Below are positions 45,583 to 52,967 of a DNA stretch of 52,967 nt, one piece after another. This DNA comes from Lachnospiraceae bacterium (GTDB lineage: Bacteria; Bacillota; Clostridia; Lachnospirales; Lachnospiraceae), in contig JAFSGE010000031.1 in the NCBI GenBank assembly GCA_017434885.1, forward strand, positions 1 through 52,967, given 5' to 3'. Position 1 is the first letter of the stretch, and each line of letters starts with the position of its first letter. The notes beneath the pieces are model-generated. The model made no database searches, had not been told where the DNA came from, and worked only from the letters and a program-made list of their open reading frames with translations. Made by a program: the position numbers and the translations under genes.

Positions 45583-46821
45583 ATGGTTAAATCAGAAATC
45601 AGAGAAAAAGTAATAGAAAGATTTTTACAATATGTGAAAATGGATACGCAGTCGGATGAGAGCAGTAATAGTACGCCCACTACGGAAAAGCAACATAAAT
45701 TAGCGCAGCTTTTGGTAGAGGAATTGACTGCAATGGGAGCACAGGAAATTACCTATGATAAGGAGCACTGCTATGTGTATGCGTCTGTTCCTGCATCAGA
45801 GGGAAGAGAAGGGGATGCGGTTCTTGGCTTTATTGCGCATATGGACACAGCACCGGCAGTAACAGGAAAGGATGTCAAGCCGCAAATAATAGAGCAGTAT
45901 GACGGCGGCGATATTTTGCTGAATCATGAAAAAGAAATTGTGATGAAGACAGAGGATTTTCCGAAGCTTTGCGAGTATATAGGAAAAACATTGATTACCA
46001 CTGACGGAACCACGCTTCTTGGAGCAGATGACAAGGCCGGTGTGGCAGAAATCATGACGATGGCAGAGTATTTACTGAGCCATAAAGAGTGTAAACACGG
46101 CAAAATCAGAATCGGCTTTACTCCGGACGAGGAGGTCGGAGCAGGTGCAGACTATTTTGATGTGAATCTGTTTGGCGCAGACTATGCTTATACGGTAGAC
46201 GGTGGTAAGCTGGGAGAAATCGAGTATGAGAACTTTAACGCGGCAGGCGCCAAAGTGACCTTTAGCGGGCGCAGTGTGCATCCCGGTGATGCAAAAAACA
46301 AAATGGTAAATGCGCTTTTGCTTGCCATGGAGTTTCAGGGGATGCTGCCTGTATTTGAAAATCCCATGTATACAGAAAAATATGAAGGATTTTATCATCT
46401 GGATGAATTGCATGGCAGTGTGGAAAGTGCTAAGGCAGAGTACATTATCCGAGACCATGACAGAATGAAATTTGAACAAAAAAAGGAAAGATTTCTTGCG
46501 GTTGCTGCGTATTTGAACGGAAAGTACGGGGATAACAGTGTGGCAGTAGAGATGAAGGATTCCTATTACAATATGCGGGAAATTATTGAGCAGCATATGC
46601 ATCTGATTGAGGATGCCAAGGCAGCTATGGAGGAAATCGGTATAGAGCCGGAAATCATTCCAATTAGAGGCGGAACAGACGGAGCAAGACTTTCCTTTAT
46701 GGGCTTGCCTTGCCCGAATCTTTGCACCGGAGGCCATAATTTCCACGGACGGTTTGAGTATATCTGCGTAGAGTCCATGGAAAAAGTAGTGGAGCTTTTG
46801 GTGAAACTGGCAAGTAAATAG
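45583..46821 (+). CDS. pepT: Peptidase T (tripeptide aminopeptidase), M20B
   Basis: A 412-residue zinc aminopeptidase that removes N-terminal residues from tripeptides in the cytosol. Metal and catalytic blocks are intact: [10 protein letters not shown] (His and catalytic Asp), GADDKAG (bridging Asp), TPDEEVGAG (general base Glu and ligand Glu), TVDGG (Asp), and [10 protein letters not shown] (final His). The dimerisation domain lies at about 215-325. Length matches known PepT. TAGGAG precedes the ATG. Peptide use is unrelated to the sugar genes. It is convergent with the TSUP permease. Confidence 0.95.
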
Positions 46822-46846
46822 CAAAACTTTGCAGAAAGTGCGGTCG

Positions 46847-47611
46847 CTAAATAAATAAACCTGACAGAATCTTGAGAAACAAAATTCCAAGTACCACAAT
46901 AATAACAGGTTTTATAATAGCAGCGCCTTTTTTCAGGACAAGACCGGAACCGGCATAATTTCCTGCAATGCTAAAAAGTGCGGCAACAATGCCCAGCAAA
47001 AATAAAACTTGTCCGTTTACAAGAAAGGTAACCAGTGCTGCCAGGTTAGAGGAAAGGTTTACCAGTTTCGTGTTGCCGGAGGCAGTTTTGATATCCATTC
47101 TGCACAGTCCGGTATAGAGCAGAATGAGAAAGGTACCTGTGCCGGGACCATAAAACCCGTCATACATTCCTATTACAAAGGAAATCACACAACAGAGAAG
47201 AATGACAAGACTGCGTCTTAGCTTCTTTTGAGGAGCTTTGGAGTGGTCTTTCTTTTTTAGGACAAAATAAGCAGTAACAGGTAAGATAAAAAGCAACAGA
47301 TATTCCAAAATCCGTTCGCTAACAGATAAACTAAGCTTAGCACCGATAGCAGAGCCGATAAGCGCACAAAGTACGGAAGGAATTGCGCTTACAAGGTCAG
47401 CATACTTGTTTTTACAATAGCGGATGGTGGATATGGCGGTGCCAAGGCAGGAAGAAAGCTTGTTTGTCGCAATGGCATTGTGAATGGGAATGCCTGCAAG
47501 TAAATAGGCGGGAAGCGAAATCAGACCGCCTCCGCCCGCGATGGAATCGATAAAACCTGCCAAAAAGACTAAAGGGCATACAATTAAGAAAGTTGTAAAA
47601 GTAATTTCCAT
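46847..47611 (-). CDS. TSUP/TauE-SafE family membrane permease
   Basis: A 254-residue protein with about eight membrane helices in two repeats. The family hallmarks are GFIDSIAGGGGLISLP near the N-terminus and the matching GMYDGFYGPGTGTFLIL in the second half. Members export or import sulfur-containing or small organic anions such as sulfite or sulfoacetate; substrate here unknown. AAGGAT is a modest ribosome-binding site. It stands alone, convergent with pepT. Confidence 0.92.
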   Translation of the reverse strand: MEITFTTFLIVCPLVFLAGFIDSIAGGGGLISLPAYLLAGIPIHNAIATNKLSSCLGTAISTIRYCKNKYADLVSAIPSVLCALIGSAIGAKLSLSVSERILEYLLLFILPVTAYFVLKKKDHSKAPQKKLRRSLVILLCCVISFVIGMYDGFYGPGTGTFLILLYTGLCRMDIKTASGNTKLVNLSSNLAALVTFLVNGQVLFLLGIVAALFSIAGNYAGSGLVLKKGAAIIKPVIIVVLGILFLKILSGLFI

Positions 47612-47740
47612 GTGATTATCCTTATTCTGTGATTAGTGTAAATGCGATTCTGCTTGTAAGAATCAAATTTAGTATATGATATTTAGTTTTGATGTGCAAG
47701 TATTGAAGGCGGATGGGAATATTGCCCGATTGTAGAAGTA

Positions 47741-47849
47741 CGTCAGAAAAAACGTTGATTAAAAGAAATAAATCGTCAGAAAAAATGCATAAATAGGTAG
47801 AAAGTTCGTCTGAAAAAGTGTATACTTTATATGAAGTACTGTAGAAAGG
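47741..47849 (+). repeat. 33-bp-period repeat array upstream of AAA+ ATPase gene 1
   Basis: CGTCAGAAAAAA begins at 47741 and 47774, and the variant CGTCTGAAAAAG at 47807, exactly 33 bases apart each time. A degenerate fourth copy, CTGTAGAAAGGAG, begins at 47839 (spacing 32) and contains the ribosome-binding site of the gene starting at 47858. Unit interiors are AT-rich and only weakly alike, so it is the short core and the period that are conserved. Confidence 0.8.
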
Positions 47850-47857
47850 AGCTTGTT

Positions 47858-49159
47858 ATGGAGAGATATGCATTAAATAGATTAGTAGAGTGGAAACAGA
47901 AAAAAAATCGTAAGCCGCTTATTTTGAAAGGGGCAAGGCAGGTTGGCAAAACCTGGCTTATGAAAGAATTTGGAAGGAAGTATTTCAAATATACGGCGTA
48001 TATAAATTTTGATAATAATAAAAGAATGGAAGAAGTGTTTTCCATGGATTATGATATCGAAAGGATTTTGATGGCAATCAATATTGAAACGGGAGTAAAA
48101 ATTATTCCCGGTGAAACATTGATTATTTTTGACGAAGTACAGGAAAATAAACGTGCAATTGCCTCGTTAAAATATTTTTATGAGGATGCATCGGAATATA
48201 CGGTTGTGGCAGCAGGCTCTTTGCTTGGTGTGGCAATACATGAAGGTGTTTCATTTCCCGTAGGAAAAGTAGATACGTTAGAATTGAATCCTTTAAGTTT
48301 TAACGAATTTTTGTTGGCTCTGGGAGAGGATGGTTTGGTTTCTCTTATTGAAAAGAACGATTTCATACTTTGGGAGGCATATCATGATAAGTTAACGGAC
48401 TGTTTAAAGAAATACTACTACATTGGAGGAATGCCGGAAGTGGTAGCTAATTTTGTAGAGAACAAAGACTTTACAGAAGTAAGAGAATTGCAAAAAAGAA
48501 TTATTGAATTATATGAAGACGATTTTAGTAAGCATACCGGCGCAAGGAAACTTCCAAGGATCAGAATGGTATGGAATTCTATCCCTATGCAGCTTGCAAA
48601 AGAAAATAAGAAATTTTTCTTTGGACAAATAAAGCAGGGGGCAAGAGCAAAGGATTTTGAAATAGCAATTGAATGGCTTATGGACTGTGGTTTGATAAAG
48701 AAAGTATATAAGGTTAGTAAACCGGCAATGCCCCTAAAAGCTTATACTGATTTTTCGGCGTTTAAATTATATATTTTGGATGTTGGATTATTGGGGGCAT
48801 TAAGTGAACTTGATGCAAAATCTATTTTGGAAGGTAATAGGATATTTATTGAATTTAAAGGAGCAATGACAGAGCAGTATGTTTTGCAACAACTTATAGC
48901 AGAAACATCATATAAACCGTATTACTTTACTGAAACCAAGTCAGAAGGCGAAATAGATTTTCTGATTCAAAAAGATAGTATGATTGTGCCTATAGAGGTA
49001 AAGGCAGAAGAAAATCTTAGAGCAAAAAGTTTAAGATGCTTTTGTGAAAAGTACAGTCCGGAATTAGCAATCAGGACTTCGATGTCAAAGTATAGGGAAC
49101 AGGATTGGATGATTAATTTGCCGCTGTACGCAATCAGTTGTTTGGAGAAAAAAATATAG
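47858..49159 (+). CDS. AAA+ ATPase with DUF4143 (PD-(D/E)XK-like) C-terminal domain, copy 1
   Basis: A 433-residue protein of the archaeal-ATPase-like AAA/DUF4143 group, often present in many copies per anaerobe genome. The ATPase domain spans about 15-170, with Walker A GARQVGKT at residues 25-32 and Walker B LIIFDEVQE near 90-100. A helical middle follows. The C-terminal DUF4143 ends in a PD-(D/E)XK-nuclease-like signature: E365-I-D367 followed by E380-V-K382. AAAGGAG precedes the ATG at 47858. Function is not established; defence, DNA processing and selfish spread have all been suggested in general terms for such families. It is paralogous to the gene at 50292 but not close in sequence. 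Confidence 0.9.
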   Translation: MERYALNRLVEWKQKKNRKPLILKGARQVGKTWLMKEFGRKYFKYTAYINFDNNKRMEEVFSMDYDIERILMAINIETGVKIIPGETLIIFDEVQENKRAIASLKYFYEDASEYTVVAAGSLLGVAIHEGVSFPVGKVDTLELNPLSFNEFLLALGEDGLVSLIEKNDFILWEAYHDKLTDCLKKYYYIGGMPEVVANFVENKDFTEVRELQKRIIELYEDDFSKHTGARKLPRIRMVWNSIPMQLAKENKKFFFGQIKQGARAKDFEIAIEWLMDCGLIKKVYKVSKPAMPLKAYTDFSAFKLYILDVGLLGALSELDAKSILEGNRIFIEFKGAMTEQYVLQQLIAETSYKPYYFTETKSEGEIDFLIQKDSMIVPIEVKAEENLRAKSLRCFCEKYSPELAIRTSMSKYREQDWMINLPLYAISCLEKKI

Positions 49160-49173
49160 AGGGGGTGAAGTTT

Positions 49174-49224
49174 GTCAGAAAAGTGTGGCCGGGATTAGTC
49201 AGAAGTATTTGTGGATAAATCCAC
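49174..49224 (+). repeat. Repeat-core copies and a palindrome after ATPase gene 1
   Basis: GTCAGAAAAGTG (49174) and GTCAGAAGT (49198) repeat the core of the upstream array 24 bases apart. Ten bases beyond the second, GTGGAT-AA-ATCCAC (49211-49224) is a perfect inverted repeat. The ATPase gene is thus bracketed by the same short motif on both sides. The downstream copies may be the remains of another array. Confidence 0.5.
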
Positions 49225-49293
49225 TATTTTGTTGTATGATAATATCAATTATTGGTAATAGAAATATTTGTTTGTCTTAAGGCAGGAAGTGTG

Positions 49294-49386
49294 ATGAGTA
49301 TTAAAGATAGTAAGGAACTTGAGTTTGCAATTTTTTGTATTGAAAATGTTGCGAGAAGGCTGTTCGGATATGCATTGCATGAGTGA
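49294..49386 (+). pseudogene. Truncated DUF3791-like gene remnant
   Basis: A 30-codon frame (starts MSIKDSKELEFAIFCIENVA) that looks like the first third of DUF3791 family proteins, the small partners of DUF3990 in a putative toxin-antitoxin pair. It stops after GYALHE. Another frame just behind it (49379-49432) reads protein-like for 17 codons, so a frameshift or internal deletion is plausible. GGAAG lies upstream. The family call rests on memory of the N-terminal pattern only. Confidence 0.4.
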
Positions 49387-49445
49387 ACAGTATTTATCGA
49401 AAGAACTTTCAGAAGAATATGAAAGAAAATAAAGGGAGAAAACGA

Positions 49446-49643
49446 ATGCCGGAAAATAAATATCTGATTGCTGATACCACAAAATCAGAAAGAATTGCAC
49501 TTATTAAATCATGGATACCGGAAGATGAAGCAATGGACGGATGTGACATCGACCTTTGGGAAATGTATAGAGATTATATTAACGGAACAAAAGAAATAGC
49601 AGAATGTAATGCTGCTTTTCAGACAGAATATTACATGGAGTAA
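49446..49643 (+). CDS. Small conserved clostridial protein, unknown function
   Basis: A 65-residue acidic protein starting at ATG 49446 with GGGAG eight bases upstream. Visible pattern: K-Y-L-I-A-D-T-T-K near the start, a central D-G-C-D-I-D-L-W-E-M-Y-x-D-Y-I-x-G, and A-F-Q-T-E-Y-Y at the end. Similar small proteins occur widely in Lachnospiraceae, sometimes mislabelled as purine biosynthesis proteins. A shared Cys and acidic residues are conserved in those I recall. It sits eight bases before the next small gene, so the two form a small operon. Confidence 0.7.
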   Translation: MPENKYLIADTTKSERIALIKSWIPEDEAMDGCDIDLWEMYRDYINGTKEIAECNAAFQTEYYME

Positions 49644-49651
49644 GGGATAGT

Positions 49652-49951
49652 ATGAATCGTGAAATTAGAATGAGCATATCTTCCTTGACAAGAACGGGAG
49701 ATAAAAAAGCAATATATATTCTGTTTACGGATGGGGATTTCAGTGCGGAATTTTCTATTCCGGACTGTAAGTTACTTAGTAGTCACGGGTTTTTGGAGGA
49801 AGATTTAAAACAGCTGAAAGAATATATTGAAAATGAACAGGATTATTTGTTCAGTCTGGCAAAAGAAATTAATCCTATCAGAAATTTTCTGGGGGATGGA
49901 AAAGAAGAGGATAAGAAAAAAAGCAAGAGGATTATCGTAGACGAAGGGTAA
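49652..49951 (+). CDS. Small hypothetical protein
   Basis: A 99-residue soluble protein with a mixed alpha/beta look: a beta-rich N-terminal half (RMSISSLTRTGDKKAIYILFTD, FSAEFSIPDCKLL) and a charged helical C-terminal half ending in a Lys/Glu/Asp-rich tail. No known domain is recognised. It follows the 65-residue gene closely, with weak GGGATAG upstream. The downstream terminator at 49960 is the left copy of the 107-bp repeat, so this gene marks the original left flank of the ATPase-2 insertion. Confidence 0.65.
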   Translation: MNREIRMSISSLTRTGDKKAIYILFTDGDFSAEFSIPDCKLLSSHGFLEEDLKQLKEYIENEQDYLFSLAKEINPIRNFLGDGKEEDKKKSKRIIVDEG

Positions 49952-49958
49952 TCCTGTA

Positions 49959-50065
49959 TCCCTCACATAAACTGTAATAACAGTTATGTGGGGGTTTTTT
50001 GTGTGAAAAAATATAGAGAGTACATAGAACGGATTAGAAGTATCAGACTTTTTCCGCAAAGACAG
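49959..50065 (+). repeat. Left copy of 107-bp direct repeat
   Basis: Identical to 51682-51788 except for three substitutions (T/A in the T run, A/C and A/G in the coding part). It contains an intrinsic terminator plus the first 21 codons of the polysaccharide deacetylase gene. Identity stops abruptly at 50065, where the left copy continues into unrelated sequence leading to the ATPase-2 repeat array. Confidence 0.93.
49960..50000 (+). terminator. Intrinsic terminator in the left repeat
   Basis: CCCTCACATAAACTGT (49960-49975) pairs with ACAGTTATGTGGGGG (49980-49994) with one bulged A and one wobble, loop AATA, followed by six T residues. It ends the small two-gene operon at 49446-49951. Confidence 0.88.
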
Positions 50066-50086
50066 TCACTATCCGAAAAAAAGTAA
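50003..50086 (+). pseudogene. Truncated 5' end of the polysaccharide deacetylase gene
   Basis: GTG at 50003 opens a 27-codon frame whose first 21 residues match the start of the intact deacetylase at 51726 with one difference (Glu for Asp at position 9), then runs into SLSEKK and a stop at 50084-50086. It is the orphaned left-hand copy made by the 107-bp duplication. Confidence 0.85.
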
Positions 50087-50133
50087 ATGTTAATCTGATT
50101 TTATTACAAAGAAAATTACAATGTTGTAAAACG

Positions 50134-50280
50134 GGGCAAAATATGTGAACAATACATGAAAAAACTGGGCAAAATAGTAATATAATAATAAAAACAACGA
50201 ATTTGCAGAAAAACAAGAAAACAAAATTGACGATTTTGCAGAAAGGAGCTAAAATAAAAACAACGATTTTGCAGAAAGGC
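50134..50280 (+). repeat. 33-bp-period repeat array upstream of AAA+ ATPase gene 2
   Basis: Five copies of a (T/G)GCA(G/A)AAA-type core. GGGCAAAATA begins at 50134 and 50167 (33 apart). TTGCAGAAA has its C at 50206, 50239 and 50272 (33 apart each), with 36 bases between the two groups. The last three copies share a longer core, CGA(A/T)TTTGCAGAAA. Copy four carries AAGGAG without a start codon; copy five, AAAGGCAGG, is the ribosome-binding site of the ATPase gene at 50292. Confidence 0.8.
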
Positions 50281-50291
50281 AGGAAATATCT

Positions 50292-51623
50292 ATGTTTCAG
50301 AGAAAGATTTATAATAAACTTTGGGAATGGAAGAATGAGTCTGATGGTAAAACAGCACTTCTGATTGAAGGAGCAAGACGAATCGGAAAGTCAACAGTAG
50401 CAGAAGCCTTTGCAAAAGAGGCATATAAAAGTTATATACTGATTGATTTTTCTAAAGCATCCAAAGAGGTCCGGGAACTGTTTGATGATATTTCAGATTT
50501 AAATTATATATTCCTGCGCCTGCAGCTGATATATAAAACAGATTTGCATGAAAGGGATTCGGTTATTATTTTTGATGAGGTACAGTTATGTCCTATGGCG
50601 CGCCAGGCAATTAAGCATCTGGTAAAGGATCACAGATATGATTACATTGAGACCGGTTCCTTGATTTCTATTCAGAAAAATATTAAGGACATATTGATTC
50701 CCAGTGAAGAGCGCAAGATAAGTATGTTTCCTATGGATTTTGAGGAATTTTTGTGGGCAACAGGTGATACAAACACATCAAAGCTTTTGACCAATGTTTT
50801 TGAAAAACAGGTTTCTCTGGGAGATGCAGTACATCGTAAACTTATGAGAGATTTTCGATTATATATGTTGGTTGGCGGTATGCCGCAGGCAGTAGAAGCA
50901 TATATCGAGACCAATAATTTCAGAAAAGTGGACGAGCTTAAGCGAGACATTTTAAAGCTGTATGAGGATGACTTCAGAAAGATAGACACATCCGGAAGAA
51001 TATCCATGCTATTTAATGCAATACCGGCACAGCTTAATACCAATGCATCCCGCTATCAGGTATCCGGTGTTTTAAGCGGTGAAAGAGCTGATACTGTGCT
51101 GGAATTAATTTCGGATATGGTAGATTCCAGAACTGTTCAGATTGCATATCATGCCAATGACCCCAATGCTGGACTGGCCAATGCAAAGGATCTAAGAAGA
51201 TTTAAATTGTTTTTGGCAGACACGGGCCTTTTGACAACATTAATTTTTAAAGATAAAAATTTTACAGAAAATATTATTTATGAAAAGCTATTAAGCGATA
51301 AACTCAGTGTTAATCTTGGATATGTTTATGAAAATGTGGTGGCACAGATATTATCTGTTAATGGATATGCGTTGTACTATCATACATTTTTAAATGAAAA
51401 GTCAAAGCATAATTATGAAATTGATTTCCTGCTTTCTAAGAAAAACAAGATATGTCCCATAGAAGTGAAATCATCCGGTTATAATACGCATAAGCCACTG
51501 GATGCCTTTTCGGAGAAATATTCTGAACGGATTTTGGAAAAGTATCTGATATATACCAAGGATTTGAAGAAGGATAGGGACATATTAATGATGCCTGTGT
51601 ATTTGCTGCCATTTATGAGGTGA
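50292..51623 (+). CDS. AAA+ ATPase with DUF4143 (PD-(D/E)XK-like) C-terminal domain, copy 2
   Basis: A 443-residue paralogue of the gene at 47858. Walker A is GARRIGKS (residues 27-34) and Walker B is SVIIFDEVQLC (near 95-105). The middle includes YMLVGGMPQAVEAYI, a block shared with copy 1 as IGGMPEVVANFV. The C-terminal DUF4143 has E376-I-D378 and E391-V-K393, the nuclease-like pair. A plausible site, AAAGGCAGG, precedes the ATG and belongs to the last repeat of the array. The gene is the only cargo between the 107-bp direct repeats. Function unknown; an active ATPase is likely from the intact motifs. Confidence 0.9.
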   Translation: MFQRKIYNKLWEWKNESDGKTALLIEGARRIGKSTVAEAFAKEAYKSYILIDFSKASKEVRELFDDISDLNYIFLRLQLIYKTDLHERDSVIIFDEVQLCPMARQAIKHLVKDHRYDYIETGSLISIQKNIKDILIPSEERKISMFPMDFEEFLWATGDTNTSKLLTNVFEKQVSLGDAVHRKLMRDFRLYMLVGGMPQAVEAYIETNNFRKVDELKRDILKLYEDDFRKIDTSGRISMLFNAIPAQLNTNASRYQVSGVLSGERADTVLELISDMVDSRTVQIAYHANDPNAGLANAKDLRRFKLFLADTGLLTTLIFKDKNFTENIIYEKLLSDKLSVNLGYVYENVVAQILSVNGYALYYHTFLNEKSKHNYEIDFLLSKKNKICPIEVKSSGYNTHKPLDAFSEKYSERILEKYLIYTKDLKKDRDILMMPVYLLPFMR

Positions 51624-51681
51624 TGGGTAAGGTGTTTTTGAGATAGCATTGTTCTAAAAATATATTGCATGTGACAAACTG

Positions 51682-51788
51682 TCCCTCACATAAACTGTAA
51701 TAACAGTTATGTGGGGGATTTTTGTGTGAAAAAATATAGAGAGTACATAGACCGGATTAGAAGTATCAGACTTTTTCCGCAAAGGCAG
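51682..51788 (+). repeat. Right copy of 107-bp direct repeat
   Basis: Matches 49959-50065 with three substitutions. Here the sequence continues in frame into the complete deacetylase gene, so this copy carries the functional right flank. Confidence 0.93.
51683..51723 (+). terminator. Intrinsic terminator overlapping the deacetylase leader
   Basis: Same stem as at 49960 (51683-51698 with 51703-51717), followed by ATTTTT instead of TTTTTT. Its GGGGG arm is also the only purine-rich stretch available as ribosome-binding site for the GTG at 51726, so hairpin folding would hide that site. Confidence 0.75.
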
Positions 51789-52580
51789 GAAGGACAGAGT
51801 GGAGAGGAGTATGCAAAGCAACGTTTGATGATAGGGCTAAAATATGGTGTGTTTGTACTTGCTGCCTTTGCAGTATTTCGGGGAGTGCTTGTAACGGTAA
51901 GTAGCAGTGTCACTGTAAGCAACAGCGTGAACGGTAAGGAACTTCCGATTTATTGTGTGGAATGTGAAGAACCTAAAATTGCGCTCACATTTGATGCTGC
52001 GTGGGGGAATGAAGACACTTCACAGATTCTTGAAATTTTGAAGAAACATGATGTAAAAGTAACATTTTTTATGACAGGTGGTTGGGTAGAAAAGTATCCT
52101 GATGATGTGAAAGCAATTCTGGCAGCAGGTCATGACCTCGGAAACCACAGTGAAAATCATAAAAATATGAGTCAGCTCTCCGATGAAAAAAAGAAAGAAG
52201 AACTTTTGAAAGTGCATGAGAAGGTGCGAACACTGACCGGATATGAAATGTTTCTGTTCAGACCGCCTTATGGGGATTATGATAATGCGGTGATAAAGAC
52301 AGCGAAAGAGTGCGGATATTATACAATTCAGTGGGATGTTGATTCTCTCGACTGGAAAGATTACGGAACAGACTCCATTATCAAAACCGTATGCGAGCAC
52401 AAGCACCTCGGTAACGGAACCATTATTCTTTGTCACAACGGTGCCAAGTACACGGCTCAGGCACTTGATACATTGATTACAACATTAAAGGAAAAAGGGT
52501 ACATTTTCGTACCGGTGTCGGAGCTGATTTATAAAGAAGGGTATCATATGAACTATGAAGGACGACAGGTCAGAAATTAA
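51726..52580 (+). CDS. Membrane-anchored polysaccharide deacetylase (NodB domain)
   Basis: A 284-residue protein: a basic cytoplasmic start, one membrane anchor (about 41-60, YGVFVLAAFAVFRGVLVTV), then an extracellular NodB domain (about 80-270). Motif 1 is ALTFDAAWG (Asp pair reduced, as in PdaB-like proteins), motif 2 HSENH gives the two metal His residues, then RPPYGDYD, WDVDSLDW and ILCHNG with the late His. This matches peptidoglycan/chitin deacetylases of the sporulation PdaB-like type. The GTG at 51726 is chosen from alignment with the duplicated leader and a GGGGG stretch eight bases upstream; the GTG at 51711 is inside the terminator stem. Confidence 0.9.
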   Translation: MKKYREYIDRIRSIRLFPQRQEGQSGEEYAKQRLMIGLKYGVFVLAAFAVFRGVLVTVSSSVTVSNSVNGKELPIYCVECEEPKIALTFDAAWGNEDTSQILEILKKHDVKVTFFMTGGWVEKYPDDVKAILAAGHDLGNHSENHKNMSQLSDEKKKEELLKVHEKVRTLTGYEMFLFRPPYGDYDNAVIKTAKECGYYTIQWDVDSLDWKDYGTDSIIKTVCEHKHLGNGTIILCHNGAKYTAQALDTLITTLKEKGYIFVPVSELIYKEGYHMNYEGRQVRN

Positions 52581-52967
52581 AATATTTGGAAAAAAGTGTA
52601 TACTTACGATTTGCCGTGATGTAAGTTTTAAAGGTATTAGCTTTGAAAAAACTGCATGAGAACGGCGATATGGAAATTGCATGGAAAATATAAAAAGTGT
52701 AATAATTTTATATTTTATTAAAACGAAAACTTTAATTTTAATTGATGCAGATTAAAATTAAAGTTTTTGTTATTTTCGAGAACTTTTCTTTTTGTGGAAA
52801 AACATCGTTTTTACGGGGCGAAATAGCATTTTTTGAAAGAAGAAAATGTGGGTATGTTTTGAAAGTAGGACGTTTAATTATTTTGAATTAAAATATAAAT
52901 TTGGGGATTTCATTAATAATACGGACTTTTGGATGAGAATGTGGTAATATTTAATTTGTAAAGTTAG
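52581..52967 (+). other. AT-rich tail of the window without a clear gene
   Basis: After the deacetylase stop, one frame reads protein-like (52581-52661, ending KGISFEKTA) but has no start site. Another from TTG 52644 reads 16 codons to a stop near 52692. These may be fragments of a decayed gene. Beyond the terminator at 52726 the sequence to 52967 shows only AT-rich DNA, probably the upstream region of a gene outside the window. Confidence 0.4.
52726..52768 (+). terminator. Long AT-rich intrinsic terminator
   Basis: AAAACTTTAATTTTAAT (52726-52742) pairs perfectly over 17 bp with ATTAAAATTAAAGTTTT (52751-52767), loop of eight, then a T. On the other strand the left arm also gives a T run, so it may work in both directions. 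Confidence 0.8.

Follow-up and report, generated by a model that had tools for sequence, protein, structure and literature searches.

Phased repeat arrays upstream of PDC-S01-type ATPase-nuclease genes as candidate autoregulatory operators

The 52,967-nucleotide contig JAFSGE010000031.1 of a Lachnospiraceae bacterium (assembly GCA_017434885.1), which in its entirety constitutes the window of this study, carries two genes for AAA_14-DUF4143 proteins, gene 1 (47858..49159; 433 amino acids) and gene 2 (50292..51623; 443 amino acids), both on the plus strand like all other window features given below. Each is preceded by an array of short repeats with a 33-base-pair (bp) period, and arrays of the same kind, with units 32 or 33 bp apart, recur upstream of related genes belonging to one clade. 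The letters of these arrays vary with the lineage of the adjacent protein. We consider it likely that they are autoregulatory operators of PDC-S01-type proteins, each array being read by the protein that is encoded next to it.

The assignment to PDC-S01 comes from whole-protein matches to the PADLOC models by gene 1 (E 4.8e-190), gene 2 (E 2.9e-102) and a third gene of the same genome, at locus L002 (E 3e-199). By these matches, and with both domains recovered by Pfam, genes 1 and 2 are predicted to be of the PDC-S01 type, a single-gene phage-defence candidate in which an AAA_14 ATPase is fused to a DUF4143 PD-(D/E)XK domain. Gene 1 retains the PD-(D/E)XK motif residues; across 91 aligned proteins E365, E380 and K382 are invariant and E339 and D367 are conserved in at least 90%, and we read these five as the putative catalytic set. 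In the literature, PDC-S01 is described as an ATPase fused to the PD-(D/E)XK superfamily that ranks fourth in frequency among prokaryotic defences, with 29,494 instances in bacteria and 9,986 in archaea, validation being pending for most candidates of its kind (PMC12988326); in a rumen survey no other individual locus was as frequent (PMC13356809).

Phased arrays upstream of one clade of DUF4143 genes

Upstream of gene 1, words of the form CGTC[AT]GAAA follow one another at intervals of exactly 33 bp, their starts (47741, 47774 and 47807) lying where an original prediction, made by reading the letters of the window, had placed them. They mark three 24-bp operator cores (47735-47758, 47768-47791 and 47801-47824; array 47735..47824), which were delimited with a core matrix; a degenerate fourth copy proposed at 47839 was not recovered, the matrix yielding three copies only even with its threshold lowered to 3. 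The five repeats foreseen for gene 2, counted from C positions 50137, 50170, 50206, 50239 and 50272, are all present, and the claim of 33-bp spacing at nearly every step holds throughout for gene 1 and for gene 2 with one step of 36 (33, 36, 33, 33). The gene 2 array consists of two words: a distal pair of AAAACKGGGCAAAATA copies 33 bp apart (array 2a, 50128-50143 and 50161-50176, thus 50128..50176; found by repeat search) and three proximal copies of the ACGAWTTTGCAGAAA unit with a 33-bp period (array 2b, 50188..50278; found by repeat searches and autocorrelation). The distal pair is closer to the core of another lineage (L095, AAAAACGGGGCAAAA; L002, AAAAACGGACAAAA) than to the word of gene 2 itself, a hint that paralogs of one genome may regulate each other.

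Lag 33 is the best lag upstream of both genes, and none of 5,000 dinucleotide-preserving shuffles matched either lag-33 score; the best score at any lag from 15 to 60 was matched by 4 of 5,000 shuffles for gene 1 and by 0 of 5,000 for gene 2. Among 5,284 segments of 130 bp, the two highest lag-33 scores belong to these two upstream regions, so that both genes indeed stand behind the strongest 33-bp periodicities of the window, beyond shuffled controls. When arrays are held to an iteron-type test of three or more direct repeats at a fixed helical spacing, gene 1 presents three cores and gene 2 five. Tandem Repeats Finder picks up the gene 2 array only. A reading as an RNA element was rejected, since an Rfam search of 46500-52967 returned no family at E 1 or better. 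Just past the gene 1 stop, two gene-1-like half cores (GTCAGAA) lie 24 bp apart at 49174-49210; an interpretation as terminal repeats on both sides of the gene was likewise rejected, the core-like word after the stop (49174) being no feature of the family.

The genome of the window has four DUF4143 matches in all. Upstream of the third gene stand three copies of GGACA(AAA) at 729, 762 and 795 of its locus, again 33 bp apart and with a word that differs from those of genes 1 and 2; by eye, this locus also adjoins a tRNA-like stretch. For the fourth gene, a distant relative (L004), Tandem Repeats Finder gives no 33-bp repeat in the locus, where the upstream side of this minus-strand gene was not read. 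In the genus, PF13635 matches occur in 34 of 37 genomes, with up to 18 DUF4143 genes per genome.

The period was sought among relatives outside the Archaea. For the genus, 80 of the listed matches were taken as loci, and later sets added 58, 40 and 20 places. The first sample comprised 113 loci, 105 with a matching open reading frame (ORF) and 8 without a seed-profile ORF; 8 of its 107 ORFs were dropped for want of a Walker motif or of a Met before it, leaving 99 upstream regions, not dereplicated. The 61 of these that belong to the clade of genes 1-3 gave a pooled z of 15.4 at lag 33 and 11.2 at lag 32, as against 1.0 and 1.3 for the 38 from other DUF4143 clades. A wider sample combined 80 named loci in genome contigs, with titles ranging from Lachnospiraceae to Bacteroidetes, Proteobacteria, Akkermansia, Anaerolineaceae, Lentisphaeria and Elusimicrobiaceae, with those from a sampling across phyla, in which 41 of 149 genomes had a match; having lost 6 ORFs and one short region, and including the window's own gene 1 (L220), its 92 upstream regions gave z 27.0 at lag 33 and 20.0 at lag 32. 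In the final pooled autocorrelation, controlled by dinucleotide shuffles and dereplicated (324 to 287, 48 to 42 and 38 to 32), the 287 gene-1-like upstream regions peaked at lags 33 (z 36.0) and 32 (31.2), followed by their harmonics at 64 (13.2) and 66 (11.8) and by 31 (11.2) and 34 (7.0), with 32 or 33 the best lag in 147. The 42 other clade members of the genus reached z 14.1 at 33 and 7.2 at 32 (best lag 32 or 33 in 19), and the 32 more distant DUF4143 genes showed no peak (1.0 and 0.4; best lag 32 or 33 in 2). The original prediction had staked itself on a 33-bp autocorrelation upstream of other family members that outlasts shuffling: a strong one, at 33 and 32, is found within the clade, and it is absent from the other DUF4143 clades sampled in the genus. 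The PDC-S01 label may hence span more than one kind of gene, as the period marks the clade of genes 1-3 and not the other DUF4143 genes when pooled.

A lag of 33, being divisible by 3, could also be produced by coding sequence, which is not so for 32. The 348 other upstream regions of the same loci, used as a control, show in the pool a 3-base periodicity (6.6 at lag 33, -1.8 at lag 32) and no 32-bp period, and with them the array as a general upstream feature was rejected. Eight of the 348 pass z 3.5 at lag 32 or 33; on reading, five are divergent neighbours that share the same intergenic array, two resemble coding sequence and one, in L183, is itself an AAA_14-DUF4143 gene. This last gene (L183:291-1577; DUF4143 54.7 bits), different in kind from the clade member beside it, has its own repeat of about 33 bp (TAATTTTGTCTTGCACACAAAACAAAA), and arrays may accordingly exist in some other DUF4143 lineages. 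Arrays placed between divergent ORFs are seen in L126, L148, L150, L212 and L218, where the neighbouring ORF may share the regulation. On two viral contigs (L120 and L124) a clade member is preceded by two copies of a palindromic 33-bp unit (ATAAATGTGTAACGTCTACACATTTATGATAGG); a 32-bp array with dyads stands upstream of an Acinetobacter junii plasmid relative (L515, 36.8% identity to gene 1); the relative from Succinivibrio dextrinosolvens DSM 3072 (L149) has six array cores; and on a Glaesserella parasuis plasmid (L511) the array-bearing ATPase gene is followed by one annotated as a site-specific DNA methyltransferase.

The repeated unit was defined with a 24-bp core matrix, built from a typed seed and refined on 99 of 103 gene-1-like upstream regions, in which it finds 160 cores as compared with 2.65 per shuffled set. 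The gene-1-like consensus is TTCGT-N4-AAAAA(A/G)TGT, its TGT (positions 18-20) being as conserved as the A-tract. Of 88 steps from core to core, 76 measure 32 (28) or 33 bp (48), 8 measure 63-66 bp, and 31, 35, 73 and 95 bp occur once each. No core is found in 27 of the 99 regions, one in 20, two in 25 and three to six in 27, so that 72 have two or fewer. Of 41 reverse-strand matches, 21 fall at the offsets of a dyad partner, -6 (14) or +26/27 (7) of a forward core, and 18 lie in a region without a forward core; the dyad form present in a subset reads ACA(C/T)TTTTT-N5-AAAAA(A/G)TGT. On both strands together, 197 cores lie in 97 upstream regions versus 4 in 97 downstream regions. With the 32/33-bp spacing kept across the family and the words varying, the original view of an iteron-like array of three helical turns, whose period is conserved above its letters, is borne out.

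All promoters considered here are predictions. The -10 element predicted for gene 1 (TATACT, 47821..47826) starts at offset 20 of the proximal core, and the promoter predicted for gene 2 (50227..50255) lies within array 2b, with TTGACG at 50227-50232, a 17-bp spacer and TAAAAT at 50250-50255; by eye, the relative in L110 has the same arrangement (TTGACG-N17-TAGAAT). Both genes thus have sites that overlap or adjoin their own predicted promoter, as expected of operators. Across 72 core-bearing regions the best -10-like hexamer is at offset 20 in 7, at offset 23 in 4 and at other offsets in the rest of those having one, and the Bacteroidetes box TAnnTTTG is at offset 20 in 8 of the 13 regions with such a box; in total, 17 different regions of the 72 have a -10 or -7 box starting at offset 20-23 of the last core. 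The further suggestion that the last copy supplies the ribosome-binding site is roughly right for gene 2 (GCAGAAAGGCAGG) but applies neither to gene 1 nor to the family, in which the distance between the end of the last matrix core and the ATG ranges from 0 to about 150 bp.

Lineage specificity and covariation of array and protein

Two lines of observation bear on which protein reads the arrays. Within one genus, two or more gene-1-type cores are present in 9 of 13 gene-1-like upstream regions (12 of these 13 having belonged to the matrix input), in 0 of 48 regions of other clade members and in 0 of 38 of other DUF4143 genes; single matches occur in 11 of the 48 and 1 of the 38. This confinement of multi-core arrays to gene-1-like genes indicates that the core word follows the protein lineage. 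In the window's own genome, neither gene 1's nor gene 2's core word was found as an array elsewhere, and scattered single copies of the gene 1 pattern, at up to 2 mismatches, are no commoner than those of a reversed control (77 versus 96).

The other line is covariation between core and protein. A first mutual-information scan of 72 proteins placed residue 388, beside the E380-x-K382 motif, in the top column. Held-out sets (1, 7 and 4 ORFs lost; proteins at least 90% identical to earlier ones removed) retained 75, 51 and 51 proteins. In a fixed register, predictions set beforehand were borne out in the held-out set for K388 with T (7.8 of 9) and for R388 (5.8 of 8). A register-free pattern, defined after the rows of the second set had been viewed and frozen thereafter, separates Q388 from R or K in training (8 of 10 versus 0 of 30) and recurs in the second set (6 of 8 versus 2 of 17), and on a tree of 65 proteins none of 5,000 simulations of independent evolution reached this association. 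The third, frozen set had no Q388 protein with an array. Pooled, the rule reaches P 0.083 in the frozen sets and P 0.0004 in sets 2-4, which include the set that shaped the pattern; K388 was never called GT in any set (0 of 37). A C-anchored rescan of all data ranked column 388 53rd and column 390 second (second in training, 21st in the held-out data). The single-residue rule is therefore taken as a lead only.

A broader scan covered 120 proteins, reusing those of training, and 337 columns by 10 core positions (3,370 pairs), and was judged against a null of DNA columns that had been simulated along the protein tree. Its first four ranks are T358 with position 10 (z 5.5), K390 with position 6 (5.2), R388 with position 7 (5.0) and K265 with position 4 (4.9). 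Within the top 25 pairs, a nuclease-domain loop at 358-363 pairs with core positions 10-12 and a loop at 384-390 with positions 4-7. The two loops, 17 of whose 19 columns are among the 337 tested, hold 7 of the top 15 pairs, a nominal binomial enrichment of 8e-6 (taken as 19 of 337, and with R388 counted twice). The winged helix, with 2 of the top 30 columns versus 51 of the 337 tested, became the less favoured reader, its K265 still ranking fourth. Lineage-specific letters and covariation favour recognition of the array sites by the gene's own product, the frozen single-residue test falling short of significance (P 0.16), and the ATPase-nuclease itself, as earlier surmised, would probably bind the array.

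Several observations weigh against this interpretation. On the side of the arrays, 140 of the 287 gene-1-like regions have a best lag other than 32 or 33, no matrix core is found in 27 of 99, and by a right-half criterion 36 of 75, 40 of 51 and 24 of 51 held-out genes lack an array; a Vibrio coralliilyticus plasmid relative (L514, 36.6% identity to gene 1) has no detectable array, and 55 of the 72 core-bearing regions have no promoter box starting at offset 20-23. Scattered single copies of the gene 2 word (ACGATTTTGCAGAAA, up to 2 mismatches) outnumber those of the reversed control in its own genome (51 versus 14), so that single extra sites may exist. On the side of covariation, the prediction of G4 with Q388 failed in the fixed register (G 3.1 of 11), frozen test set 4 gave 3 of 6 for Q388 versus 3 of 17 (P 0.16), and in the C-anchored rescan column 388 fell to 36th of 324 in training and 119th of 340 in the held-out data. 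The two loops were chosen after the ranking was known, and the signal extends to K265 in the winged helix (rank 4) and, in the top 30 columns, over 13 nuclease, 9 AAA, 6 lid and 2 winged-helix positions.

Proposed mechanism and rival explanations

Computation shows a conserved period and core, a dyad that is partial, predicted promoters close by, letters specific to the lineage, and covariation of core and protein; self-binding, repression, cooperativity, the trigger (release on infection) and the role in defence are what we infer. In the scheme we propose, a STAND-like AAA+ ATPase with a C-terminal PD-(D/E)XK domain would bind the array upstream of its own gene. The unit to be bound is bipartite, spans about 20-23 bp and has dyad symmetry in a subset; in the gene 1 lineage it reads ACAYTTTTT-N5-AAAAARTGT, with TTCGT or AGTCG carried in the left part. 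As units 32-33 bp apart are separated by three helical turns, proteins at successive units would face the same side of the DNA, which could permit cooperative assembly. With the proximal unit on or beside the core promoter in many members, the bound protein would keep its own transcription low, and relief of this repression would yield more nuclease. In a bolder version, which we hold doubtful, the DNA-cutting cleft of the PDC-S01 nuclease would itself read the array, so that the enzyme would sit parked on its own promoter as a phased ATPase assembly that does not cut; stripping it off, by phage take-over of RNA polymerase, DNA remodelling or nucleotide changes, would both free active nuclease and turn on its synthesis. 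Were this so, a single DNA address would act at once as operator, safety catch and alarm, and the joint diversification of nuclease with operator would have given rise to many mutually blind addresses per genome.

Operator arrays bound by dedicated regulators are common, and a separate host regulator might bind these arrays in place of the encoded protein. We judge this distinctly unlikely: the core letters differ between paralogs in one genus and track the lineage of the adjacent protein, relatives from several phyla share one core word upstream, and bases of the core co-vary with residues of the protein next to it. An element acting directly on RNA polymerase, as an UP-element or bend with no dedicated protein, would account for A-tracts placed three turns apart near predicted promoters. 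However, TGT is conserved as well as the A-tract, the conserved word varies with protein lineage, and a 32-bp period is missing before the 348 other genes of the same loci and before other DUF4143 clades; we therefore find such an element very unlikely.

The arrays might instead be recognition ends or landing sites, read by the nuclease to move or copy its gene. The presence of up to 18 DUF4143 genes per genome is in keeping with this, as is the occurrence of relatives on viral contigs (26 with an alignment query, none with gene 1 alone as query), in 60 plasmid records and in 13 phage-like records. In the window, array 2 and gene 2 are flanked by a 107-bp, 97.2% identical direct repeat (left copy 49959..50065, right copy 51682..51788), which carries a terminator-like stem and the 5' end of a polysaccharide deacetylase gene; in L110, too, a piece upstream of the relative is duplicated. 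Presence is also patchy, gene 2's family being found in the flanks of 2 of the 25 deacetylase loci taken (from 36 of 37 genomes with a match), some of which are possibly paralogous deacetylases; one locus, L251, resembles the deacetylase site without gene 2. Against mobility stand the strong upstream bias of the cores, the fixed offsets of some cores from promoter boxes and the lack of a transposase among the Pfam-scanned neighbouring ORFs (TauE, a weak DUF4160, polysaccharide deacetylase and one without a family), other neighbours not having been searched. On balance, we regard this explanation as unlikely. The alternative of a copy-number-variable expression switch driven by slippage, entertained in the original prediction, would suit the tandem period and the variation among relatives, whose genes have 0 to 6 matrix cores each; in addition, 88 of 699 loosely alignable upstream pairs contain a gap of 28-37 or 60-70 bp, in pairs that are not close and alignments in which gaps are cheap. 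Yet the comparison of copy number showed no change in the number of units. Of 27 records from Bacteroidales plasmids that match one upstream stretch, 24 show at least 99% identity over all of its 435 bp and have two cores at a distance of 66 bp. One more record, which matches in two pieces, has the same two cores at this distance and differs in length elsewhere, and the other two match only another part, so that all 25 records covering the stretch agree. Among 32 close pairs (proteins at least 90% and upstream regions at least 85% identical), 25 of which are identical proteins, mostly the same genome twice, none has a gap of 28-37 or 60-70 bp. Copies within one array moreover differ outside the core, unlike fresh slippage products, and such a switch is hardly credible.

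If the arrays are self-read operators, they provide a testable biochemical handle in the form of a defined DNA substrate for each lineage, and they could explain how up to 18 DUF4143 genes per genome coexist without cross-talk. The array also provides a rule for annotation, by which the arrayed clade can be told apart from other proteins that share its domain label. Should the nuclease domain be the reader, the clade would constitute a natural set of paired specificities between the PD-(D/E)XK domain and DNA.

Comparison with known systems

Plasmid iterons have a period of about 22 bp. They, and the origin boxes of archaeal Cdc6/Orc1 proteins, differ from the present arrays, which have a spacing of 32-33 bp and lie at promoters of single genes with no suggestion of a replication role. 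STAND-type ATPases with a winged helix (2qen and 2fna; CED-4 and plant NLRs) are not known to read such arrays, and matches to 2qen and 2fna stop at model residues 317 and 316 and so leave out most of the PD-(D/E)XK domain. The closest likeness in composition is to PDC-S01, whose models genes 1, 2 and the third gene match and with which they share the ATPase and PD-(D/E)XK domain; the words 'operator' and 'tandem repeat' have no occurrence in the main text of the paper describing it (PMC12988326). A literature search, with preprints and most subscription papers outside its scope, found no paper tying 33-bp repeats to an AAA ATPase. For regulation, the nearest parallel is the homing endonuclease I-TevI, which represses itself from an operator over its own promoter and cuts that operator about 100-fold less efficiently than its homing site (PMC2988022). 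As described there, I-TevI has a GIY-YIG catalytic domain with no ATPase mentioned, in contrast to the ATPase and PD-(D/E)XK domain of PDC-S01, and its operator resembles the homing site rather than a multi-unit array of fixed period, no homing site being known for PDC-S01. A nuclease that represses its own gene from an operator at the promoter is the arrangement that we propose for the PDC-S01 arrays.

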